From positions 1-32,450 of IMG/VR virus record IMGVR_UViG_3300025141_000440: DNA of 32,450 nucleotides; one strand, written 5' to 3'. The position numbers were made by a program, and so were the translations under genes. The DNA comes from a virus. The notes under the pieces were generated by a model. That model was not told the DNA's origin and made no database searches. It saw nothing but the letters and a program-made list of their open reading frames with translations. Shown piece by piece: positions 817 to 30,875 of the stretch (positions within the stretch are counted from its first letter, which is position 1; every line of letters starts with the position of its first letter).

Positions 817-2538
817 GTGAAAATATCGGGCATCGAATTAGAAAGGTTGATCAAGGAAGAACTAAAAGAAGCCCTTGAGCAATACCCTGCTGATGCCATG
901 GCCGAGATTACGGCGACTATTTTTAGTCTTGCTGATCAAGCCGGAGTAGAAACTACCGGAGACCAACGACAGGATATAGTTGGCGAACTAGAGGAGCTGT
1001 TAAAAGGACAGGGCTTTGAACTGCACGAACAGGGCTTGGTGTTCGCCGAGCCTCTCAGACTCGATCTCTATAAATCCCCTCTGCTCTTGGATCTCATAAT
1101 CAATATCATCGATGTCCTCGGCGACGCTGCCGAGGACCGAATAGTTAAAGCGTTTGAGCGCGGAGGTATCGATGTTGTTCCGGATACTGTACCAGAAGAG
1201 GAACCATCCGATGAAGAAGATCAAACGGATACCGTTGTGGTGCCTCCTGTTGAGCCGCCACCGGTGGTGCCTCCTGTTGAGCCGCCACCTGAAGATGGCC
1301 CAGAATCTGTCGATGCATCCGAATTCAATAAGTTTTTCTTAACTTTGGACGACCAGAGTATGAAGGCACTTATAAAGGAGGTGACCACAATCTTGATCAT
1401 GCCCTTCACCGGTGCGCTTATGGGCGCTGACGATGCAACTAAAGCTCGTTTCTATGAGTTTATGTCTCCAAGAGCCCAGGAATATCTGGAAGATGACCAG
1501 AAGATCATGAGGGGAGCCGACGGCACCTCCGTGGGACCTGAAGACATTCACAGATACCAGCAGGAGGTATTAAAATTCGCTAGGGATATGGGACTAGGCG
1601 AAGAAGAATCCTTTGAGAATCCCTGGGCTTTCAAATGGTTCTGGGAAGACGGCGCCCTCGATGATTTGGGCGACGACAGAGAAGACTCAGAGGTCGTTCG
1701 CAATCTCAAGTCCATCCCCACCGGCAAAGAGATTACAATTGGGATCCTAGCAGGACTCGCCGGCACCGCCGGACTTTACGCACTGTGGAAATATCTATTT
1801 GGCGCCGAAGACGACGAAGACCTTCCACCGGGTCTGGCTCAATCCGTGGCCGATCAGGCGGAAGACCTTGAAGCTTTGACTGGAATAGATGTTCAGGACC
1901 CCGAGTTTGTAGTGAGCGTGCTAAAGTGGGTTCTTTCACTGACCTTAGATGAGGGACAGATGGTGTGGGTGGACCGCCTTGAACCGATTATTCGCGTGCT
2001 CTCTCAACAAGACATCACGCCTGAAGCACTATCTTCTTTGTTGGATGAAGTCCCGGGGATTGAATTGATAGACAAGCTCCCCGGCGGCCGGGAAAAGGTC
2101 GTCGAAGTAATGATGGATAAGTGGGATGACATGTCGGACAAAGAGCGCCTTGATTTGATTCTTATGCTTGCCCCAGAAGAATATCTGGAGATGCTGGATC
2201 AAGTCTTGAAAACTTCACCTAGGATGAGCGATATTCCTGGTATGGATTTCCCTGGAGTCAAATCTGGCCTATATGTCTGGCTCGAAGATGGGCCTGTCTT
2301 GCCACCGCGCGGCGACTTTGATCCACCGCTGTGGGAATTCCTGCTCTTAGCGGCCGCGCGCCTGGGACTAGTCGACGGCAAGCATGTCACCATGGCCCAC
2401 CAGATCATAAGTGACCTCTGGGACTCTTTAGAGGAAAGCAAAGAAGATGGCAAGGTTAAGCGCGGCATGAAGTTGATGAAGATGCTGCTCCAAGAACAAC
2501 AACTAAACAGAATGAAAGTGTTAGCAGGTGTAAAATGA
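817..2538 (+). CDS. Large acidic protein with a central transmembrane segment, unknown function
   Basis: A 573-aa protein that I do not recognise. The start is GTG, chosen because AAAGGA at 805-810 sits 6 nt upstream and the gene abuts the protease stop. Residues 1-20 form a charged amphipathic helix (ISGIELERLIKEELKEAL). Residues about 141-158 are a duplicated VVPPVEPPP linker. Residues about 305-328 are a glycine-rich hydrophobic helix (ITIGILAGLAGTAGLYALW) that looks like one membrane-spanning segment. The remainder is acidic and helical. There is no signal peptide. It overlaps the next gene by ATGA. Its place beside the prohead protease and the similar N-terminal helix in the next gene suggest a prohead internal or core protein, perhaps one ejected with DNA, but this is inference. 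Confidence 0.75.
   Translation: MKISGIELERLIKEELKEALEQYPADAMAEITATIFSLADQAGVETTGDQRQDIVGELEELLKGQGFELHEQGLVFAEPLRLDLYKSPLLLDLIINIIDVLGDAAEDRIVKAFERGGIDVVPDTVPEEEPSDEEDQTDTVVVPPVEPPPVVPPVEPPPEDGPESVDASEFNKFFLTLDDQSMKALIKEVTTILIMPFTGALMGADDATKARFYEFMSPRAQEYLEDDQKIMRGADGTSVGPEDIHRYQQEVLKFARDMGLGEEESFENPWAFKWFWEDGALDDLGDDREDSEVVRNLKSIPTGKEITIGILAGLAGTAGLYALWKYLFGAEDDEDLPPGLAQSVADQAEDLEALTGIDVQDPEFVVSVLKWVLSLTLDEGQMVWVDRLEPIIRVLSQQDITPEALSSLLDEVPGIELIDKLPGGREKVVEVMMDKWDDMSDKERLDLILMLAPEEYLEMLDQVLKTSPRMSDIPGMDFPGVKSGLYVWLEDGPVLPPRGDFDPPLWEFLLLAAARLGLVDGKHVTMAHQIISDLWDSLEESKEDGKVKRGMKLMKMLLQEQQLNRMKVLAGVK
1237..1290 (+). repeat. 27-bp tandem duplication encoding VVPPVEPPP twice
   Basis: Two adjacent 27-bp units (1237-1263 and 1264-1290) differ only at their last base. 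They encode a nine-residue proline-rich linker twice, in frame. The near identity at third codon positions shows a recent slippage-type duplication rather than selection for the protein alone. Confidence 0.9.
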
Positions 2539-2988: not shown

Positions 2989-3210
2989 GTGGCAACGAAT
3001 GTATACGTAGAGCTTAGGCGCGGCGAGAGTGGAGAACGATTGATAAGGCGGTTCATAAAAAGGTGCAAGAAAGAACGAGTAGTTGAAATCTACCGCGCCC
3101 GCACCGACCACTATATCAAACCATCAGTTAAGAAAAAACTCAAAAGACAGAAGGCTATGAGAGAAAGGCAAAAACTTGAAAAAAAGAAACACAAGAAAAT
3201 GTTTAGATAA
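2989..3210 (+). CDS. rpsU: Ribosomal protein bS21, phage-encoded
   Basis: A 73-aa, very basic protein with the whole layout of bacterial small-subunit protein bS21. It has an N-terminal VYVELRRGES strand, then LIRRFIKRCKKERVV (compare the ALRRFKRSCEKAGV region of E. coli S21), then YRARTDHYIKPSVKKKLKR, then a long Lys/Arg helix ending KKMFR. Cellular bS21 sits on the 30S platform next to the anti-Shine-Dalgarno end of 16S rRNA and takes part in initiation. Phage bS21 genes are known from environmental phages, and the proposed role is replacement of host bS21 to favour phage messages. The start is GTG at 2989 with an AAGGAAAG site upstream. It lies among head genes, so it is probably transcribed with them. 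Confidence 0.85.
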   Translation: MATNVYVELRRGESGERLIRRFIKRCKKERVVEIYRARTDHYIKPSVKKKLKRQKAMRERQKLEKKKHKKMFR

Positions 3211-3255: not shown

Positions 3256-3651
3256 ATGGCGACTTATGAATATAAACCAGGTCTGGGAAATGCCGCATCG
3301 TTTCAGGTGTCGGGAAAACCCTATGTAAAGGGCAACGTCGATGCTAGTGCTAATCCCGTGATAGCGTTTCCCTCCGTAACCAGTTGGATTGTGGTTCACG
3401 CTAACAATGGTGACTGCAAAGTGGGCTTTTCGGCAAACGGGGTGGCAGGAAGCAACTATTTAACTGTTCCGTCGGGAAGCATATCTCCACGTTTAGAGGT
3501 TAAAGTTACAGAATTATATTTGGGTGGTGCTGCAACGTCAGTTGATGTCATGGCCGGCCTTACCTATATTACTAGCGAACAAATTAATAATGCTTCTGTC
3601 TCGCCATCGGGCTCGAACTGGTCAGGCTCTCTGGGTGCTGAGGTAGGATAA
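3256..3651 (+). CDS. Small beta-rich virion protein, putative head decoration
   Basis: A 131-aa protein of alternating small and hydrophobic residues with almost no predicted helix (NAASFQVSGKPYVKG, SWIVVHANNGDCKVGFSANG, LEVKVTELYLGG). This looks like a single beta-sandwich, as in small capsid decoration or fibre-tip proteins. No named family is certain. There is no signal peptide or membrane segment. The start ATG is preceded by AAGGAG 12 nt upstream, inside the mini-ORF described at 3224. Its location between bS21 and the neck/fibre genes, within the head module, supports a structural role in the particle. The Ser/Gly-rich C-terminus is probably flexible. Confidence 0.65.
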   Translation: MATYEYKPGLGNAASFQVSGKPYVKGNVDASANPVIAFPSVTSWIVVHANNGDCKVGFSANGVAGSNYLTVPSGSISPRLEVKVTELYLGGAATSVDVMAGLTYITSEQINNASVSPSGSNWSGSLGAEVG

Positions 3652-3692
3652 GGAGGATATACAAAATCCTTTTCTAATGGAGGGTGCCCAGA

Positions 3693-5417
3693 GTGTCAGA
3701 TCCGAAATATAAATGGAAACAACCGGTGGCTCCTCCTCCGCCTATGTTTTTTGGTGGCAAAGAACGTGACCTAGTAAAGCAAGTTAATGATGAACTTGCT
3801 GAAAGAGTCATTGGCCAAACCATTGCTTATTATCCAATAAGCATTGAAGAGTCTAACTTTAATGAAACGTATGGCGAAGCGATTGATAAGGTCTCGCTCC
3901 CTCCTGTACGGGTTTACGCGTTCGTCGAGGTAGAAAACGAACAATCCAATGAGAAATTTGGATATGAATATCAGACGAAGCTGACTGTAAACTTTCACCG
4001 TCGCCGTCTCGTTGAAGATCAAAACCTTTACGTTCGGGTGGGCGACTTTGTACAATACGGCGAGCAGTTTTACGAAATTGTACGCACCTATAACGATACC
4101 CGCTTTCTTTTCGGGCAAGTCCAACACAAGTTTCAAATCAGCGCTGAGTGCGTCCGTGCCCGCCGCGGCCTCTTCCGTGTCATGCCCAGCGTGGATCGCC
4201 CGACTGACGGAGAAGTTATCCCGGGAGAAGGAGGTGCCGCGCCCGCGCCGCGACCCGCACCCTATCCGCCGCTTGATGCCTCTTACATCGTAGTATCCGA
4301 AACGTCAAAGCTTCCAAACGATCGAGTCCTCACCGCCGGCACGAATATTACTATTACTGATGGGGGCCCGAACAGCAGTTTGACAATCGCCGCCACTAGT
4401 GCCGGTAATGCGTCTGCTCAAGGCCCAGTTGGGTCCCTCCAGTTTCAAACCGGCTCCGGCGGCCTTAGCGGAAGCGCTAATCTAACATTTCTTTCGGCCA
4501 GCAATCGTTTGGGGATTGCAACTGACACTCCCACCCATAATTTAACTATCATAGGTAATATGTCGGCCTCGTCCGATGTGTTAATAGGCGGCGATTTGAC
4601 TGTTCAAGGGGTTGTCATTGGAGGCTCCCCACTTCAAGTATCGGGTACTATCGAGATAGTTGATAGTACCGGTACCGTTATATCCGTATTGGGCTCTTCT
4701 TCTTTGGGCCCTGATGTCATTTCCTCTAGTCTGGGGATACTCACGGACCTTACGGCCTCGGGGCTGGTATCTGCGAGTTACTTCTATGGCGATGGGTCTA
4801 ATCTAAGCGGCATCAGTTCGGGTGGCGGAATCTTCAGCATCATTGATGGGTCCAATGCCTATGTGACAAGTAGTCTGAATATTGGGGGTAATACCGCTCC
4901 CGATCATCAATTGGTTGTCAGTGGCACGGTATCCTCCAGTGTCAATATATCAGCGTCCGCGTACTACGGCGACGGTTCGAACCTGAGTGGGATAACAACG
5001 ACAGCCGCCGGCGCAACGACTCAGCTACAGTTTAATACAAGCAATGCCTTCGACGCGTCTGCCAATTTGACCTATGATGGGTCTACACTCCTTGTTAAGG
5101 CTGCCTCGCATCTTTCCGGAGGACTTGTCCTTAAGCGCACCCCGGTCACAAACGACTATAGTATTGCGTTGACAGACTATTATGTAGGAGTGGATACTAC
5201 TTCTAACACAGTAGACCTTACAATCCCCCAGGCGTCCTCGGCCACTGAGGGACAAACTTTTGTAATCAAGGACGAGGGCGGAAACACAACCACCAATGTT
5301 ATTACTATTCTCCGCTCCGGATCGGATACAATTGATGGCGCGACCAGTGTAGAAATTAATTCTCCCTATGGATCCTTCAGTCTTTATACTGACGGCGCCA
5401 ACTGGTTCATATATTAA
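3693..5417 (+). CDS. Neck protein (gp14-like domain) fused to a fibre
   Basis: A 574-aa protein. I chose GTG at 3693 because GGAGGG at 3679-3684 is 8 nt upstream; an in-frame GTG at 3684 would overlap that site. Residues 1 to about 165 form a compact domain (MSDPKYKWKQP, QTKLTVNFHRRRLVEDQNLYVRVGDFVQYGEQFYEIV) whose pattern of ARRR/HRRR, GD-x-x-x-Y and a terminal beta strand resembles the T4 gp14-type neck protein of marine myoviruses. After a Pro/Ala linker come fibre-type sequences: an AGTNITITDGG strand, two YYGDGSNLSGI motifs (about 4779-4815 and 4962-4995), and a C-terminal domain ending DGANWFIY that is shared with the next two genes. It probably caps the head and carries a neck fibre. 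The fibre part is secure; the gp14 relation is a pattern match by eye. Confidence 0.55.
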   Translation: MSDPKYKWKQPVAPPPPMFFGGKERDLVKQVNDELAERVIGQTIAYYPISIEESNFNETYGEAIDKVSLPPVRVYAFVEVENEQSNEKFGYEYQTKLTVNFHRRRLVEDQNLYVRVGDFVQYGEQFYEIVRTYNDTRFLFGQVQHKFQISAECVRARRGLFRVMPSVDRPTDGEVIPGEGGAAPAPRPAPYPPLDASYIVVSETSKLPNDRVLTAGTNITITDGGPNSSLTIAATSAGNASAQGPVGSLQFQTGSGGLSGSANLTFLSASNRLGIATDTPTHNLTIIGNMSASSDVLIGGDLTVQGVVIGGSPLQVSGTIEIVDSTGTVISVLGSSSLGPDVISSSLGILTDLTASGLVSASYFYGDGSNLSGISSGGGIFSIIDGSNAYVTSSLNIGGNTAPDHQLVVSGTVSSSVNISASAYYGDGSNLSGITTTAAGATTQLQFNTSNAFDASANLTYDGSTLLVKAASHLSGGLVLKRTPVTNDYSIALTDYYVGVDTTSNTVDLTIPQASSATEGQTFVIKDEGGNTTTNVITILRSGSDTIDGATSVEINSPYGSFSLYTDGANWFIY

Positions 5418-5491: not shown

Positions 5492-5581
5492 ATTTTTTAC
5501 TCCTCCGAATGAGTGTTCGCGAACAAATTTATGATTTTTTCACCCGTTTAGTCATTTAATCTATAGGAGGATTTAAAAAAT
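5492..5581 (+). promoter_or_regulatory. Possible RNA switch hiding the ribosome site of the 5580 gene
   Basis: In the 162-nt gap before the gene at 5580, ATTTTTTA (5492-5499) and TCCTCC (5501-5506) are complementary, in the right order, to TAAAAAAT (5574-5581) and GGAGGA (5566-5571). This is 14 pairs with only a 1x2 internal loop, closing a 59-nt loop. Folded, the stem would bury the Shine-Dalgarno site and the first bases of the ATG. An anti-SD hexamer upstream of a strong SD is the telling part; the A/T part is weaker evidence. I see nothing else gene-like in this gap. TTGACA at 5437 lacks a good -10 element. Confidence 0.35.
5514..5525. promoter_or_regulatory. 12-bp perfect palindrome, possible operator
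   Basis: TGTTCGCGAACA is a perfect 12-bp palindrome in the gap between two fibre genes, lying inside the loop of the possible RNA switch. Its size suits a dimeric DNA-binding protein, but no partner gene or second copy was seen. Confidence 0.25.
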
Positions 5582-7787
5582 GGCATACAAATTTCAAATC
5601 GGAACCGCATATGTTTCCGGTAATATTGAATTACAACCCGACTATGATTTATTAGTCGACAAAGATGGCGTCTCTGATCTTGGTTCATCGGCTAAACGTT
5701 TTGCAAACGCATACGTTGACAGTTACTACGGAGACGGATCAAACTTAACAGGCATTTCGTCTGACAATGTGGACGTTACTGGTTCAGCCGTCGACGCCGC
5801 ACTGATGCTCGTGGGTGCACAAACTGCTAGCGCTAGTGGTGTAGGCTTGGCGGTCGCGACCTCCGACGGCAGCACAAACCCCACCAACGCTCTGCTGACT
5901 TTCAACCCCAGTAGCGGGCTGCTTTCCGGTTCGGGTGCAATCCAAGGCAACAGCCTTTCATTGAATGGCGCTGCTGCAATTAGCAATCAAGGTGCAGTTT
6001 CAGGTGTTACGACTATTGCCGCTTCTGGACTTATGTCTGTCGCCTCCATCTCGATGGACGACGGCTCTACTCTCGGCCCGGATTCGGTTGCAGATTTGGT
6101 TACTTTTTCTGCTGATGGTGACATCACCATTAAAGACGGTGCATATGATTTCAATATCGCTGCACACGATGGTACAAATGGTCTGGCCCTCGGTGGTACC
6201 ATTGTTGGTGCTAGCGCCAATGAACTTAATTATAACCAGGGTGTGACTGCGGGTACAGCTATTGCTAGTGCAACGGTTGTTCTTAACTCAAGCAAAGACG
6301 TTACTGGTATTAACGGGCTTACGGCTTCGTATTTCTATGGCGATGGTTCTAACATTACAGGCCTTTCCTCAGACAGTGTGGATGTTACTGGTTCAGCCCT
6401 TGACGGTGCGCTTATGCTTGTCATGTCTCAGACTGCTAGTGCTAGCGGCGCCGCCCTCGCTGTCGCTACTTCCGATGGTAGTACAAACCCAAGCAATGCA
6501 ACCTTGACCTTCAACCCCAATAGTGGGCTGCTCTCTGGTTCAGGTGCAATTCAGGGCAATAGTCTTTCCCTAAATGGGGCTGCTGCAATTAGCAATCAAG
6601 GTGCAGTTTCAGGTGTTACGACTATTGCCGCTTCTGGACTTATGTCTGTCGCCTCCATCTCGATGGACGACGGCTCTACTCTCGGACCGGACTCTGTTGC
6701 TGATTTGTGGACCTTCAGTGCTGATGGCGATACGACACAGAAGGATGGTGCGTATGATTTTGATATTGCATCGCACGATGGTACAAATGGTCTTAAGCTT
6801 GCAGGTACCCTCGTCACTTCGACTGCTGCTGAGCTTAACTATGTGGATGTTACGGCCGGTACAGCGACTGAATCCAAGGCTGTCGTGCTCGATGCTAGCA
6901 AAGATATCGCTGGACTCAATGATGTCTCAGCTGCTGGTTTGACTTTGTCAGATCTAGATGAAGGCGGCATCCTGATCGCCGGCGCATCCGGTGTGCTAAG
7001 CACCTCCGTTGACAACCTCGAGTGGACCACCGACCGCGAAGACAACAACGGCTATTTAGCTCTGGTCGTTTCTTCTTCTGCTAGTGGTAGTGCCGTACTC
7101 GGTGACGGGTTCTTTATGATGACGGACGAAGAAGACGAGGACATCTGCTTTATCACTGCCGACGGCGCCGAATTCGCAGTCGACATCGCCGTCGACGCAG
7201 ATGTTGATCTAGATGGGGCCACCGCCATTGGTGGTACACTTAGTTTTGATGAAGGCTCTTCGCAGACCATTGACATGACTACGAATGCCGTGACAATCCA
7301 GCTCGCGGAAGACACATCGGGCACCAATGGTGCTCTCTTGTTCTACACGGGCTCGGGTGGCGACTTCATGAAGTTTGACACTCAGTATGACTATGTTGCA
7401 ATCCAGCAGGACTTTAGTGCGTCGTGCTCTAATGTCTACCTTGGTAGTGGCGCTAGTGCTGCAGTCAACGTCGTGGGGCGCCTGGACATTGGATCTGGCG
7501 TTCGTTACGATAGTGTGGCCGTTAAGACCACAACTGCAACTCTGGACAACCAGGATAGTTATGTTATTTGCCAGGGTGGTGGCTCTGCCTTCACCGTCAC
7601 TTTGCCGGCCTCGCCGACAAATGGTGAGTTCTTTGCCATCAAGCGTGCATCTACGATGAGTGCTGATTTGACAATTAGCGGCAATGGCAACAACATTGAT
7701 GGACAAAGTACCATCATCTTGGAGTCGGCTGGTGCTGCAGTGTCGGTGGTGTATGATTCAACTGGTGATCAGTGGAACGTATTCTAA
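5580..7787 (+). CDS. Fibre-like virion protein with duplicated 203-aa repeat
   Basis: A 735-aa, Ser/Ala/Gly/Asp-rich, cysteine-poor protein typical of phage fibres. The start ATG follows AGGAGG at 5565-5570. Order: an N-terminal segment (MAYKFQIGTAYVSGNIEL); two tandem 203-residue repeats from about residue 49 to 454, each beginning YYGDGSN or FYGDGSN and including DDGSTLGPDSVADL and a C-terminal AELNY-VTAGTA segment; then a unique acidic part; then a C-terminal domain (VTLPASPTNGEFFAIK to DQWNVF) related to those of the two neighbouring fibre genes. AELNY-VTAGTA and GDGSNLTG motifs recur in tail-fibre proteins of marine phages. It is followed by two hairpins, one a terminator, so the 3.7-7.8 kb genes may form a unit. 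Whether it is attached to the head, neck or tail cannot be told from sequence. Confidence 0.7.
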   Translation: MAYKFQIGTAYVSGNIELQPDYDLLVDKDGVSDLGSSAKRFANAYVDSYYGDGSNLTGISSDNVDVTGSAVDAALMLVGAQTASASGVGLAVATSDGSTNPTNALLTFNPSSGLLSGSGAIQGNSLSLNGAAAISNQGAVSGVTTIAASGLMSVASISMDDGSTLGPDSVADLVTFSADGDITIKDGAYDFNIAAHDGTNGLALGGTIVGASANELNYNQGVTAGTAIASATVVLNSSKDVTGINGLTASYFYGDGSNITGLSSDSVDVTGSALDGALMLVMSQTASASGAALAVATSDGSTNPSNATLTFNPNSGLLSGSGAIQGNSLSLNGAAAISNQGAVSGVTTIAASGLMSVASISMDDGSTLGPDSVADLWTFSADGDTTQKDGAYDFDIASHDGTNGLKLAGTLVTSTAAELNYVDVTAGTATESKAVVLDASKDIAGLNDVSAAGLTLSDLDEGGILIAGASGVLSTSVDNLEWTTDREDNNGYLALVVSSSASGSAVLGDGFFMMTDEEDEDICFITADGAEFAVDIAVDADVDLDGATAIGGTLSFDEGSSQTIDMTTNAVTIQLAEDTSGTNGALLFYTGSGGDFMKFDTQYDYVAIQQDFSASCSNVYLGSGASAAVNVVGRLDIGSGVRYDSVAVKTTTATLDNQDSYVICQGGGSAFTVTLPASPTNGEFFAIKRASTMSADLTISGNGNNIDGQSTIILESAGAAVSVVYDSTGDQWNVF
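5724..6941 (+). repeat. 609-bp in-frame tandem repeat (two units), with a 107-bp exact core
   Basis: Unit 1 is about 5724-6332 and unit 2 about 6333-6941, with a constant offset of 609 bp, exactly 203 codons. The block 5970-6076 is identical base for base to 6579-6685 (107 bp), while the flanks have diverged at synonymous and some non-synonymous sites. The patchwork of exact and diverged parts suggests an older duplication partly re-homogenised by gene conversion. Confidence 0.9.
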
Positions 7788-7883: not shown

Positions 7884-9704
7884 ATGGCTTATAAATATTC
7901 AAAAGGCAAGACTTATCAGGGCGACATCTATAATGAAGATGACACCCAGAGAAATACTTATTTAGACTGGAGTGAAGATGCAGTTGGAATCGTAGCCGGC
8001 GGTGAGCTGGCTTTCACTATCTCGGGATCCAATGATGAGATTAGTTCGTCGTACAATCTTTCTGCGTCTGCCTTCTATGGCGATGGTTCGGCGCTCTCAA
8101 ACATCACAGCCACAGCATCCCCAGCCGGATCCGACACAAACGTTCAATATAATGATGGCGGTAGTACGGGCGGCGACTCTGGGTTTGTTTATGATGGCGC
8201 TGGGTCAATCACGGTCACCAATTCTGTAACAGCATCTAACGGCATTAAGTCTGACGGGGTTAATCAATTTACCGCAGGTACCTGTTTCTCTCCTCCCGTG
8301 GCCGTTACCTCAAGTATAAAATACTACCCCCAAGTTCTCAGCTGGCAGCACTACTCACTCCCGGCTACGGGAGCTTTCGTGATTCACACAAATATAACGG
8401 CCAGTAGCCACGAGATGTTTGAGATCAGGGTACACGGATATAATTATTTTGGCGCCGGTATGATTGACTTTACGATAGGAGGCTACGCCTACGCCACCAT
8501 GGCGCGTACAATATCTGGAACCGGTTCCGCGGCCTATGGTAGTATAACAGATAACGGATCAGATGGGTACAGGAAATGGCTCGGTATTGATGCTAATGGT
8601 TATGTGTCCATAGCTATTGGTGATTATGATCTGTCAAACACGAAAGATCACTATTTCTGGAACCTGAGTGCTGATTTTTGGTCGTTACGGAATCTATCCA
8701 ATCCATATGAAGGTGATCCCTGGAGCGTGGAACTCAGCGCTGTTGAGGGTTTTGGATGGACAGATATACGAGGGGTGTATGGACAGGCGGGCGTTCCCAT
8801 GACTGCCCCTATTACCTCTAAGGCTACATGGGGTAATTCCTGGGTTATGATTAATACCGGTTCCTCCGGAGGAGAGTCCAATCCCCCACTATACACCCTG
8901 GACGTAAATGGTGACATCCGTGTAAGTGATGATCTGTTTGTTGATGATTTTGCTAGCCTTGACTCTTGTAGAATTGGCACGACACAGACAGACCCAGGCA
9001 CCGGCAACCTAGTTGTTGAGGGCAACGTCGGCATCGGTACCGATACGCCGGCGTACACCCTTGATGTACAAGGATATATGAGTGTCGGCACGGCAGGCAC
9101 TGCTTATATTATTAATAATAATGACACTAACACTCATATTAAACTTGGTGGTGGTGGTGAGCCAGGGCTTGATGGAATGACCTTTACCTGCGGCGGCAAA
9201 GCTATGCTGACCCTAGACGAGAACGGTCTAGATACCGTGACAGTCGGTACCACGGGCGACGCAACGGACTTTAAGGTTATGACAGCCAATACCGACTATG
9301 CTCTATACGTGTCGGGAGGAGCTGATAGAGTCGGCATCGGCACGGCAACACCCAACTCCACCTTTGAAGTTAGTGGCTCTCAAGCAGGCAACTATACAGT
9401 TATTACTGGTGATATGACGCTAGATGAAACTCACTACATAGCAGACCTTGCGACAAATGCCACAACAACCGTAACTCTCCCAGCTGCTAGCGGAGTTACC
9501 GGAAGAACATATCACATTTTGAGTACCGGCAATGGCGATGACACGCTTACGATTGACTCCAACGGCGGTCAGTTTATGGGTTCCAACCAGAGTGAGGGTC
9601 CAGAGGATTCAATCGAAATCGAGGGTAGCGCGCAGAGCGTTACGCTGGTGAGTACTGGCACGTATTGGTTTATTTTAACAGATAACAGGCAGCAGGGACA
9701 CTAG
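7884..9704 (+). CDS. Fibre-like virion protein with a central sugar-binding-like region
   Basis: A 606-aa protein, the third of the fibre group. It starts MAYKYSKGKTYQGDIY, similar in style to the start of the previous gene. It has an FYGDGSALSNI motif (about 8072-8105), a DTNVQYNDGGS segment, then a region unique to this copy (about residues 130-300) rich in Tyr and Trp (SWQHYSLP, HEMFEIRVHGYNYFGAGMI, YRKWLGID). That pattern is common in beta-sandwich fibre or receptor-binding domains. Then come repeats of the type NVGIGTDTPAYTLDV and VGIGTATPNSTFEV, typical of fibre shafts, and a C-terminal domain (TVTLPAASGVTGRTYHIL to TYWFIL) shared with its neighbours. The ribosome site is weak (TTGAGA), unlike most genes here. 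Host binding is a reasonable guess for the central part only. Confidence 0.7.
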   Translation: MAYKYSKGKTYQGDIYNEDDTQRNTYLDWSEDAVGIVAGGELAFTISGSNDEISSSYNLSASAFYGDGSALSNITATASPAGSDTNVQYNDGGSTGGDSGFVYDGAGSITVTNSVTASNGIKSDGVNQFTAGTCFSPPVAVTSSIKYYPQVLSWQHYSLPATGAFVIHTNITASSHEMFEIRVHGYNYFGAGMIDFTIGGYAYATMARTISGTGSAAYGSITDNGSDGYRKWLGIDANGYVSIAIGDYDLSNTKDHYFWNLSADFWSLRNLSNPYEGDPWSVELSAVEGFGWTDIRGVYGQAGVPMTAPITSKATWGNSWVMINTGSSGGESNPPLYTLDVNGDIRVSDDLFVDDFASLDSCRIGTTQTDPGTGNLVVEGNVGIGTDTPAYTLDVQGYMSVGTAGTAYIINNNDTNTHIKLGGGGEPGLDGMTFTCGGKAMLTLDENGLDTVTVGTTGDATDFKVMTANTDYALYVSGGADRVGIGTATPNSTFEVSGSQAGNYTVITGDMTLDETHYIADLATNATTTVTLPAASGVTGRTYHILSTGNGDDTLTIDSNGGQFMGSNQSEGPEDSIEIEGSAQSVTLVSTGTYWFILTDNRQQGH

Positions 9705-12750: not shown

Positions 12751-14022
12751 ATGGCGATCCCTAATCTACAACCTGCCTCTACATCTAATTCAAATGTCCT
12801 ACCGGTCACCGGATCCACAGCAAATGTGGGCGCAACACTGCCTTTTGGTGTTTATGCTGGTTCTGGAGCATTTGTTTCAGGGGCGGCCGACCAGGTGGCC
12901 TATACATATAAAAAACTGGGGGGCGACGTCCTAGATATTGAACTGGCAGAAGGAAATGTTTATGCCGCCTATGAAGAAGCGGTTTTAGAATATTCTTATT
13001 TGGTTAATTTACACCAAAGCAAGAATTCTTTATCTGATCTGCTAGGGGCTGCCACCGCCTCTTTTGACCAAGACGGCCAAATTGAGTCAGGTCATGCACT
13101 CTCTGGGTCAGATGTCGAACTACGTTATCCTCGCTTTGATTATGGCTTCTCACGCCGCGTATCCGAGAGATCAATTACTGAAGTGGGATTAGGAGGAACT
13201 CTCCCTATCTACTCTGGCTCCATTGATAAAGTATCAGGCCAGCAGGATTATGATTTGCAGGCCCTTCTTTCGGCATCCTCTGCCACCAATACCGACGCCT
13301 CCTTTTTTGGCCAGATCGGCGATAAACGGGTGCAGATTCGTAAAGTATTCTTTAAAACCCCACGAGCGATGTGGCGCTTCTATGGATATTATGGTGGATT
13401 TTCCGTCGTGGGCAATATGCGCACCTACGGCCAGTATGCAGACGACTCAACGTTTGAAATAGTCCCAGTCTGGCAAAACAAGCTTCAAGCCATGGCCTAC
13501 GAGGATGCTCTCTGGACGCGTATTTCTCATTATTCATATGAAATTAAGAATAATATGTTGCGTATCTATCCTCGACCTCAGGGAACATCCCCAGAGAAAT
13601 ATTGGGTAGAATTTACAATTGAAAACCAATATGCACCCTGGGAAGAGGGTACAGGGCAGCCCAAGTCTGGTATTGAGGGTATTAATAATATGAATACTCT
13701 ACCATTTGCTAACATTCCTTATGCAAAGATTAACTCGATTGGTAAGCAGTGGATCCGGCGGTTTGCTTTGGCACTCACCAAAGAGATTTTGGGACAAGTG
13801 CGCGGCAAGTTTGCAACAGTGCCGATCCCGGGCGAGAGTGTAACTCTAAATGCTGCCGAACTCCTGGGTCAGGCAAAGGCCGAGCAAGATATGCTCCGCG
13901 ATGAACTTAAGACGATTCTAGATGAGTTAACTTATACTGAAATGGCTGCCAAGGATGCCACTTTGCAAGATTCTACCAAGAAAGTGATGGAAAACATCCC
14001 CACCGGCATCTACGTTGGATAG
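12751..14022 (+). CDS. Neck/head-completion protein (T4 gp13-like candidate)
   Basis: A 423-aa virion protein. The segment YKKLGGDVLDIELAEGNVY followed by AAYEEAVLEYSYLV resembles the N-terminal helices of head-tail adaptor proteins. The later part AMAYEDALWTRISHYSYEIK followed by NNMLRIYPRPQG matches, by pattern, the YYE-(helix)-N-x-L-x-I stretch of gp13-type neck proteins in marine T4-like phages. Residues 1-45 are Ser/Thr/Gly-rich and probably disordered. The start ATG has GAGGA upstream (12740-12744). It sits between the capsid gene and the gp15-like gene, as gp13 and gp14 precede gp15 in T4. The match is by eye, so the safe call is a structural protein of the head-tail junction. Confidence 0.5.
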   Translation: MAIPNLQPASTSNSNVLPVTGSTANVGATLPFGVYAGSGAFVSGAADQVAYTYKKLGGDVLDIELAEGNVYAAYEEAVLEYSYLVNLHQSKNSLSDLLGAATASFDQDGQIESGHALSGSDVELRYPRFDYGFSRRVSERSITEVGLGGTLPIYSGSIDKVSGQQDYDLQALLSASSATNTDASFFGQIGDKRVQIRKVFFKTPRAMWRFYGYYGGFSVVGNMRTYGQYADDSTFEIVPVWQNKLQAMAYEDALWTRISHYSYEIKNNMLRIYPRPQGTSPEKYWVEFTIENQYAPWEEGTGQPKSGIEGINNMNTLPFANIPYAKINSIGKQWIRRFALALTKEILGQVRGKFATVPIPGESVTLNAAELLGQAKAEQDMLRDELKTILDELTYTEMAAKDATLQDSTKKVMENIPTGIYVG

Positions 14023-14032
14023 GGGATAGACA

Positions 14033-14980
14033 ATGGCACGCAAGGATAGGCGAACACAATTACAAATCCAGAACACCAAGGGGCACGAATACGATTATAT
14101 TGGCGATAAAGGCGTTGAGGACAAACTTCATGAAGTTCAGTTTGCTCCTTCGTCCTTAGAAACCATTGATGGCGCCATGATGAACTTTATTAACGAGGAA
14201 TTGAATTTATCCATCACAACGAATGATGGTTTTGAAAAGGTTCCTGTGTTGTGGGTTACTTCGGAGCGAGCATATCAGATTAAACATAACAAAGAACTTC
14301 GGGACACCGAGCAGACCTTAATTTTGCCTCTAATTGCTGTAAATCGCGCTAATGTTACAAAGGATCCCAACTTTAAGGGCACCATATTTGCGAACTTATA
14401 CCCCCAACCCGGTGCACAGGGCGGAACTATTCAAATAGCTCGCCGAATCAATCCTAAAAAAACAGCAGAATTTCAAAATGCGTACTCCAAGCGCAAGTAT
14501 GGCGCCAATAAAGATGTAGATTCGAAAAACCTTAATACAAACAAGCGCAACATGTCGACCCAGCGGGTGGTGTACGAGACAATGACCATTCCCATCCCTA
14601 CATGGGTAAAGGTAAACTATGAGGTTATCTTACGGACCGAGTACCAGCAGCACTTGAATGAGCTGGTGCGGCCCTTTATCACCGTCCCCGGCAATTCGCG
14701 CACTCCGCGCCGCATCACGCAGGATGGTCATTACTATGAGGTGTTTATCGACGGCGGCTTTACGAACGAGTCCAATCAGGCCGCCCTCGGAATGGAGCAG
14801 CGGAACTATGAGACCACTATCTCTATTGAGGTGCTGGGGTATCTGGTCGGAGAGGGCGAGAACCAAGAATCACCCACCATTGCTATCCGCGAAAACGCCG
14901 TGGAAGTTAAACTGGGGCGAGAGAAAACCATCTTTGGGGAAATACCCGAGAATATTAAGGATGGATTTTATAGAGAATAG
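14033..14980 (+). CDS. 15: Tail terminator / sheath stabiliser (T4 gp15-like)
   Basis: In T4, gp15 forms the ring that caps the finished tube and sheath and joins the tail to the head. This 315-aa protein shares the order of landmarks with gp15: VPVLWVTSERAYQIKHNKE near the start, LPLIAVNRANVTKDPNF, then VNYEVILRTEYQQHLNELVRP, which corresponds to the IYELSIFTRYEDDM-type strand and helix of gp15. A final YETTISIEVLGYLVG strand precedes a charged C-terminus. It starts 10 nt after the neck gene stop and lies just before the sheath gene, the same neighbour as in T4. The start has GGGGAT only, a modest ribosome site, so coupling to the upstream gene is likely. Confidence 0.65.
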   Translation: MARKDRRTQLQIQNTKGHEYDYIGDKGVEDKLHEVQFAPSSLETIDGAMMNFINEELNLSITTNDGFEKVPVLWVTSERAYQIKHNKELRDTEQTLILPLIAVNRANVTKDPNFKGTIFANLYPQPGAQGGTIQIARRINPKKTAEFQNAYSKRKYGANKDVDSKNLNTNKRNMSTQRVVYETMTIPIPTWVKVNYEVILRTEYQQHLNELVRPFITVPGNSRTPRRITQDGHYYEVFIDGGFTNESNQAALGMEQRNYETTISIEVLGYLVGEGENQESPTIAIRENAVEVKLGREKTIFGEIPENIKDGFYRE

Positions 14981-29687: not shown

Positions 29688-30875
29688 ATGCTGTTTCAAA
29701 TTTTAGACACTAAGGGCGATTGCGCTGGCTATTATGCCAATAATTTTATTTATCCGGGAGTCGACCCACCACTTGAGGGTGCCACGTGGGATTATTCTCC
29801 CCATCTACAGGGCAATAGGCATGAGTTAGGGCGCCTCTACGCCGCCGGAGCGACGCTTACAGACGTTTGTCCGCCGGATATGAAGGAAGACTGGGAAAAG
29901 ATCAAGAAGACGCTTAGATCGTGTCTCAAGGCCTTTGATACTTCTGCCCTTTCACTAGAGGATAATTGTTTTTACGATGTGCTGCCGGAATATTTCCTAT
30001 ACCAGTACCTAGAAGCCAAGAATAAGATTACCCAACACGCCCTTGAGACCCTTCCACGCCCCACCAATTATAATTTTATGCATAACCTTGTAGAGATGCT
30101 CTCGGACATTCGATCGCGCCACGTGAGCGTCGATGTAGGCCCCATTAAACATCTTCTGAGTAGCGTTCGTGGGCAGAATTTTCATCGTACTTTGCGTTCA
30201 GTAAAACATGCTTGCGATTACAACGCCTGGGGAACCATAACAGGTCGGCTAGCCACGAGCCCCAATAGTTTTCCCATCCTTACCATGAACAAGGAATTCC
30301 GCGCCTGCATTAAACCAAAGAACGATTGGCTTGTGGAACTTGATTTCAACGCGGCCGAGTTACGTACGCTGTTGGCGCTCTCCGGAGAGGAGCAGCCTCC
30401 AAACGACATTCATGACTGGAATGTGAAGAATGTTTTTGATGGCAACCTGACCCGAGAGGAGGCCAAGGTGCAAACCTTCGCGTGGTTGTATTCTAGTAAG
30501 GAAAACAAGGACTTAGAGCGCCTCTACAACAAGGATTTGGTGCGGAATAAGTACTGGGATGGCTTAAAAATTGAGACAGATTATGGTAGAATAATAGAGA
30601 ATGTAGATGAGCACCATGCTCTCAACTACATCGTTCAGAGCACCACAATTGATATGGTGCACGAGCAGGCTTACAAAGTCTATGAGCTTTTGAAGGGGAG
30701 AAAAAGCCACATCGCATTTCTTATTCACGACGCTGTGTATATCGACCTCGCCGAAGAGGATCGGTACGAAATATTAAATTTACTTGACACGTTCAGGAAA
30801 ACGCGTTATGATATGTTCAAGGTTAACGTCTCCGCTGGAAAGAACCTCGGAGCAATGAAGGAATTAAAATTATGA
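29688..30875 (+). CDS. Compact family-A DNA polymerase (palm/fingers domain only)
   Basis: A 395-aa protein with the pol I-type motifs. TGRLATSPNSFPIL (185-198) is the segment before motif A. Motif A is VELDFNAAELRTLL, with metal ligand Asp219 plus Glu224 and Arg226. Motif B is TREEAKVQTFAWLYSS (Arg256, Lys260, Phe264, Tyr268), the O-helix that binds the incoming nucleotide, and NYIVQSTTIDMV follows. Motif C is LIHDAVYIDL with His347 and Asp348. The usual motif C HDE is HDA here. No 3'-5' exonuclease motifs are seen in the 180 N-terminal residues, so proofreading must come from another protein or be absent. T4 itself uses a family-B enzyme, so this is a marked difference. A perfect sigma70 promoter lies upstream, and the stop overlaps the next ATG. 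Confidence 0.8.
   Translation: MLFQILDTKGDCAGYYANNFIYPGVDPPLEGATWDYSPHLQGNRHELGRLYAAGATLTDVCPPDMKEDWEKIKKTLRSCLKAFDTSALSLEDNCFYDVLPEYFLYQYLEAKNKITQHALETLPRPTNYNFMHNLVEMLSDIRSRHVSVDVGPIKHLLSSVRGQNFHRTLRSVKHACDYNAWGTITGRLATSPNSFPILTMNKEFRACIKPKNDWLVELDFNAAELRTLLALSGEEQPPNDIHDWNVKNVFDGNLTREEAKVQTFAWLYSSKENKDLERLYNKDLVRNKYWDGLKIETDYGRIIENVDEHHALNYIVQSTTIDMVHEQAYKVYELLKGRKSHIAFLIHDAVYIDLAEEDRYEILNLLDTFRKTRYDMFKVNVSAGKNLGAMKELKL
30784..30812 (+). promoter_or_regulatory. Near-consensus sigma70 promoter inside the polymerase gene
   Basis: TTGACA (30784-30789), 17-nt spacer, TATGAT (30807-30812), one mismatch in the -10. The predicted start near 30819 is about 53 nt before the ATG of the 75-aa gene, giving the small-protein/MazG/FtsZ-like genes their own transcript. 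Confidence 0.65.

Follow-up and report, generated by a model that had tools for sequence, protein, structure and literature searches.

A gp14-type head-closure protein that probably carries its own neck fibre in uncultivated relatives of phage T4

The window (the whole stretch analysed, positions 1 to 32,450 of IMG/VR virus record IMGVR_UViG_3300025141_000440) is a virus fragment of 32,450 bases in which a distant relative of T4 is represented by its block of head and tail genes, with a gp21-type protease, a gp23-type capsid protein, a gp13-type adaptor, a gp15-type terminator, a sheath, a tube and a gp26-like hub. A scaffold gene is presumed in the head block from its position only. The top-ranked isolate match of the capsid protein is Microcystis phage Mel-JY01 (35% identity). 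The window also contains genes of other kinds. In the interval from the head protease gene to the fibre genes, 817-2538 (+) encodes a 573-aa protein that passes the curated cutoff of Pfam FliG_C (E 5.7e-8). Within the head genes, 2989-3210 (+) encodes a 73-aa homologue of ribosomal protein bS21 (PF01165, E 3.1e-10); bS21-like frames were seen by eye at loci L068, L070, L074, L011 and L095, and the head block of Mel-JY01 has a gene annotated as RpsU. Past the structural genes, a match to the DNA polymerase A family (PF00476, E 1.4e-13) is found at 29688-30875 (+).

The gene considered here lies on the plus strand, in a reading frame that is open from 3684 to 5417 and corresponds to 577 amino acids. 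The start codon is most likely the GTG at 3693, giving a product of 574 amino acids (3693..5417), because a Shine-Dalgarno-like GGAGGG (3679..3684) is located 8 bases upstream and homologues start at the same codon; purine-rich runs also precede the start of 11 other fused genes that were compared. Residues 1-163 (3693..4181) constitute an N-domain assigned to the gp14/Hc2 type of head-closure (stopper) proteins using AF2, Foldseek, VIA-align, synteny and a 3x3 hhalign comparison. It is followed by a Pro/Ala-rich linker from residue 164 to about 196 (4182..4280), delimited by alignment of the fused proteins, in which the fraction of P + A is 0.38 over residues 164-200; among 12 fused proteins the linkers are alignable, long and variable. 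A first fibre module (YIxV...LPNxRVLTAGxNI..., 4281..4410), also delimited by alignment, occurs in other phage proteins too. The shaft then displays two YGDGSN motifs, at residues 365-370 (4785..4802) and 425-430 (4965..4982), and the last 90 residues or so (5145..5414) form a fibre-tip domain. Just upstream of the gene, 3256-3651 (+) encodes a 131-aa protein without a Pfam or PHROG match, which is kept just upstream of the fibre or neck-fibre gene in many relatives and is possibly a decoration or fibre-anchor protein.

For the C-terminal part, two PHROG families of the fibre or baseplate kind were matched, phrog_20556 (E 7.1e-8, residues 385-576 of the 577-aa frame) and phrog_972 (E 1.2e-5, residues 500-576 of the same frame), and the tip thus has homology to known fibre proteins. 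By eye, the tips of two other fibres of the window (5580-7787 and 7884-9704) resemble it. A PDB sequence search with the fibre part gave no match. Using tblastn, 17 GenBank phage and archaeal-virus records were matched, 12 of them solely within residues 454-573 and five solely in the N-domain. The original prediction had described a two-part protein, in which a neck-type N-domain precedes a shaft with two YGDGSN motifs and a tip, and this description is confirmed by the motifs at 365 and 425 and by the PHROG matches of the tip.

The N-domain was modelled with AF2 on an alignment of 84 rows. The model is moderate (pLDDT 73.8, pTM 0.61), with residues 1-20 at pLDDT 55-59; an earlier model from 12 rows was poor (pLDDT 61.5), and the neck chains at the top of its structural list all stayed short of E 1e-3. 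In a Foldseek search of the PDB, T4 gp14 from the virion (9mkb_0) ranked first (E 6.5e-6, TM 0.62 over the query), and the ten chains with E <= 1e-3 were all phage neck, connector or stopper by title or came from a gene-transfer-agent particle (6tba); baseplate-initiator chains of phage A-1(L) appeared at ranks 14 and 17 (TM 0.20). VIA-align superposed model residues 1-159 on residues 11-177 of T4 gp14 (9lu7_M) with a Z of 9.3 over 132 residues and a high rmsd (6.0), and also returned neck chains of phage Chi (8vhx_F, Z 10.8), Pam3 (9.8) and phage 812 (9.4); Z values below 8 may reflect a common arrangement, and these named neck rows are all above 8. Judged by title, 34 of the first 36 VIA-align rows belong to necks, connectors, portals or whole particles; the first tail-tip or baseplate chain comes at rank 37 (Z 6.2), and the gp7 neck chain of A-1(L), at rank 40, falls below some of these chains. 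The comparison of the fold of residues 1-165 with T4 gp14, proposed together with the original prediction, was thus positive. A baseplate or tail-hub origin of the N-domain was considered and rejected among the families listed, such chains being found only from VIA-align rank 37 onwards.

Sequence comparisons were less telling when each was taken singly. The N-domain of the window has no Pfam or PHROG match; single-sequence searches (N-domain against PDB sequences and Pfam, whole protein against PHROGs) gave no significant match for it, and a 12-row profile searched against PDB sequences gave chance matches only. Among 84 family members, the two PHROG Hc2 families were touched weakly by six and by four members (best E 0.0026); similarly weak E values link 19 of the 84 to a family without assigned function and 10 to Pfam TssN. 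Profile alignment with hhalign against T4 gp14 gave E 0.0012 and a probability of 19%, which is weak taken alone. The corresponding values were E 2.5e-10 (97%) for the gp13-type protein of the window against T4 gp13 and E 2.8e-4 (41%) for the gp15-type protein against T4 gp15; the six crossed neck pairs lay at E 0.1-0.57 and a tube-protein negative control at 0.21-0.36, and the three neck proteins of the window therefore form a clean diagonal with those of T4. Among 50,697 phage records, the only isolates matching the N-domain (E <= 0.01) were four Flavobacterium immuto records and Mel-JY01, at 30-35% identity. Unlike the window protein, the immuto and Mel-JY01 homologues are unfused (about 174-182 aa), lack a fibre and are located between gp13 and gp15.

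Relatives of the domain were collected from IMG/VR, from two GTDB contigs, whose copies sit in metagenome bins of uncertain host, and from two isolates. The gene order of T4 is 13-14-15, and the T4-type order is named Ad2-Hc2-Tc2 by Lopes et al. in the accessible part of PMC4362835. An unfused copy of the domain, in a frame of 159-190 codons, is located between gp13 and gp15 in 174 of the 175 loci (not dereplicated) in which all three genes are found, the exception being L070. Because the relatives place the domain in this slot, it is considered as the orthologue of gp14. From the modelled fold plus the gene order, the N-domain is a gp14-type neck stopper, and the neck assignment made in the original prediction is in this way supported.

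In the window itself, the gp13-type adaptor (Ad2), which is the expected partner of a stopper, lies at 12751..14022 (+; phrog_211, E 4.4e-11; hhalign to T4 gp13). The gp15-type tail terminator begins 10 bases past it (14033..14980, +; hhalign to T4 gp15, with the T4-gp15_tss profile at E 0.0029, below cutoff), followed by sheath and tube. The slot between gp13 and gp15 is empty, and the fusion gene, at 3693, lies outside it. This displacement lowers the positional claim, not the claim of orthology; as the copies at L099, L124 and L140 also lie outside the slot, after gp15, synteny supports the identity of the domain, not the position of the window gene. Both neighbours are visible, among the matches listed, in 16 fused contigs, and in every one of them gp13 and gp15 lie side by side, only about 4-28 bases apart and with no gp14 between them; these 16 are the window, five contigs and a further ten, the latter coming from 16 records searched, six of which had neither gene. 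At L070 (2688-3200), an unfused gp14-type gene already stands beside fibre genes, with gp13 and gp15 adjacent elsewhere, and this locus looks like an intermediate state in which the gene has moved and is still unfused.

The domain is fused to a fibre in at least 25 IMG/VR contigs, window included. In the first set, 14 of 95 loci (window included) carry 360-1253 further residues past the domain. The linker region, used as a query, gave 79 loci among the matches listed. Of these, 19 are fused (8 on contigs already counted); in the other 60, which bear out the occurrence of the first fibre module in other proteins, no stopper domain was found in the same frame. Both scans returned the best 80 of more matches, and the fused total is therefore a minimum; L071 and L072 encode the same protein and others are near-identical, which brings the number of distinct proteins below 25. 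Over the contigs counted, the fused frames run from 509 to 1425 codons, and one further copy ends at a contig edge. An assembly artefact was considered and rejected, the same in-frame fusion being present in at least 24 other IMG/VR contigs. For 12 distinct fused proteins (526-1419 residues), the median pairwise identity is 81% in the N-domain (66 pairs) and 42% past residue 205 (66 pairs), the second value being probably too high, as it comes from global alignment of Ser/Gly-rich sequence. The type of tip, compared by eye, is common to 11 of the 12, and the end of L068 differs.

A tree was built from 44 rows, selected on identity, and eight outgroups, with 11 later-found fused contigs outside it and with L060, L061, L010 (partial), L072 (same protein as L071) and L075 (identity and ending as in L076) left out. 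Thirteen fused and six unfused copies fall in one well-supported clade (100/98), within which fused and unfused copies are mixed, the starred branches forcing at least two changes of state. One gain with losses and two gains would both fit this tree. Gene order, with L070 as the moved but unfused state, suggests a path for the origin of the fusion: the gp14 gene would have left the 13-14-15 slot, settled immediately ahead of the fibre genes and been fused to a fibre.

Extensions of other kinds were also observed on the same stopper. At L099 (2848-3777), L124 (2958-3776) and L140 (6400-7347), the domain gene follows gp15 and has a different C-terminal extension of 104-149 residues; at L097 it occupies the canonical slot and has an extension of 119 residues. 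In the immuto-like IMG/VR contig L244 (4001-5524), a 507-aa protein encoded between gp13 and gp15 continues for about 330 residues past the domain. This homologue is like the window protein in joining a stopper domain to a long C-terminal extension, but it keeps the gp13-gp15 slot. No Pfam or PHROG family was matched by the extensions of L099, L124, L140, L097 and L244; the stopper part of L124 and that of L097 have weak matches to the PHROG Hc2 family. Judging from these sequences, the C-terminus of the stopper appears to be an attachment point that was used more than once.

The readings that compete with a working stopper bearing its own fibre differ in what they make of the N-domain and of the chain. 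It is possible, though unlikely, that the stopper domain is an anchor only, with the fused chain in some of the six places of the ring, or at a site of its own, and the closing of the neck left to an unfused stopper. Such an arrangement is easiest to picture in the nine of 25 fused contigs that have two copies, an unfused frame of 171-180 codons lying directly upstream of the fused one, where mixed rings or a division of labour would be possible. A profile search found a single stopper copy in the remaining 16 of 25, among them one record of 193.8 kb and another of 116.8 kb, which argues against an anchor; both counts hold among the matches listed and come from records that are fragments or of uncertain completeness, the window with its one copy extending over 32 kb. 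The closed gp13-gp15 gap in every fused contig where it is visible, among the matches listed, points the same way, as does the core conservation of the fused copies, which is near the canonical level. Over 52 columns in which 53 canonical copies (selected by a text pattern among 72 candidates, so that columns inside the pattern are conserved by construction) show at least 97% conservation, the mean number of deviations is 1.64 in fused single copies (14 rows, from 15 such loci, L348 being missed and L072 absent from the set), 1.78 in fused tandem copies (9 rows) and 2.44 in unfused tandem copies (9 rows). By this measure the stopper core of the fused copies is not decaying; the fibre part varies in sequence and length.

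A separation of the product, through cleavage of the linker or an internal start, into a stopper and a fibre that is free to attach at another site is considered very unlikely. The linker is long, Pro/Ala-rich and variable, a Met is present at residue 164 in seven of 12 fused proteins, and the module that follows the linker also occurs in other phage proteins, all of which would suit a separation; yet by eye no cleavage motif is conserved over the 12 linkers, none of the seven genes has a Shine-Dalgarno-like run ahead of Met164, and the other five lack this Met. The least probable reading takes the protein for a tail or baseplate fibre, with a tail terminator, hub or adaptor as its N-domain. 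The tip domain does resemble baseplate and tail-fibre proteins, and tail-tip or baseplate chains do enter both structural lists, but in the VIA-align list they stand below the block of neck, connector, portal and whole-particle rows at its head; moreover, a terminator, a tube and a gp26-like hub are each encoded by other genes of the window, and relatives carry the domain between gp13 and gp15.

We therefore consider the gene, with a probability of about 0.8, to encode a head-closure (stopper) protein, orthologous to gp14/Hc2, that covalently carries its own neck fibre. The fold, the gene order, the recurrence, the copy number in available records and the conservation of the core are established. 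The formation of a ring or hexamer, the side on which the fibre leaves, its exposure and its function we infer from genes and models. If the neck is built as in T4, a ring of six N-domains would sit under the gp13 dodecamer, close the DNA channel and dock the terminator gp15. Because the fibre starts at about the point where the outer, gp15-contacting region of T4 gp14 starts, the chains would emerge laterally from the neck at the stopper-terminator (head-tail) junction, as whiskers or collar fibres; that they project as whiskers would follow from the identity of the N-domain, as read from the genes. With no stopper other than the fused one, each of the six subunits would bear a fibre chain. 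Phage fibres are usually trimeric; if this one is too, six fused chains would give two fibres per hexamer; genomes with two copies could form mixed rings.

In the accessible part of a preprint on T4 (PMC12270204), gp14 is described as a hexamer under the gp13 dodecamer, with residues 178-256 disordered before tail attachment and in contact with gp15 in the virion. The window protein is like T4 gp14 (PDB 9mkb, 9lu4-9lu7) in its fold, its predicted N-terminal arm, its layout of helix and beta-barrel and the 13-14-15 order of its relatives. It differs in that a linker followed by a fibre of about 380 residues stands in place of the C-terminal part (about 80 residues contacting gp15 in T4, according to the same text), the linker beginning about where the gp15-binding region of T4 gp14 begins, and in that the gene has been relocated upstream of the fibre and capsid genes. 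Likeness to T4 fibritin (wac) lies in the presumed outcome, fibres at the neck; fibritin is encoded by a separate gene beside gene 13 and binds gp13, according to the accessible sources, whereas the window fibre is one chain with the stopper. General family scans found no fibritin match among the window ORFs scanned. The statement in the original prediction that T4 uses separate proteins for neck and whiskers is borne out, with one correction taken from the available text of PMC12270204, namely that the whiskers bind domain III of gp13, giving twelve fibres, and not gp14. The view that the fusion would be a different solution to the building of whiskers gains support, both from the single chain and from an attachment point that would differ from that of T4.

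Neck appendages are described in other phages, in the parts of the papers that were accessible. Anabaena phage A-1(L) has neck fibres gp82/81/80 docked on a gp5 pentadecamer (PMC10966104); as is presumed here, these are neck fibres on a contractile-tailed phage, but they are made of three separate proteins. The whiskers gp30/gp31 of Shigella phage Sf14 are placed on the adaptor gp37 (PMC11821841), and the collar spikes of XM1 (gp40) and the appendages of phi29 (gp12) are mentioned in the Milano paper (PMC10491603); these too are neck appendages, but all are separate proteins. In the accessible text of PMC4360716, on Far-T4 phages, gp13, gp14, neck, tail fiber and synteny were not found as words. 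A search of titles and abstract openings among the papers listed (outside subscription papers and bioRxiv) found no published description of a stopper-fibre fusion; within these titles and abstract openings, the neck protein is of a known type, and it is its covalent joining to a fibre for which no report was found.

Host or surface binding and control of the tail fibres are the candidate functions of the fibre. The variable length and tip of the fused proteins suggest a surface-binding role, and a whisker-like role in holding tail fibres, by analogy with T4, is equally open. Where the fused copy is the only stopper, the fibre would form one mechanical unit with the DNA gate, and a pull or binding on it could also act directly on the ring and help to trigger or license the opening of the gate; we regard this as doubtful, but if true it would make the neck a surface-sensing genome gate, unlike T4, in which whiskers and gate are different proteins.

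In an uncultivated T4-related phage lineage recovered from many metagenomes, the DNA gate itself would bear a fibre covalently, and present-day contigs display all the states, with the gene in its canonical position, moved, in a tandem pair or present as the fused copy only. The arrangement raises a question of symmetry between six chains and fibres that are usually trimeric, and would be an example from nature of fibres being mounted on the head-tail junction. A gene that was unannotated may thereby be given a predictable and testable position in the particle.
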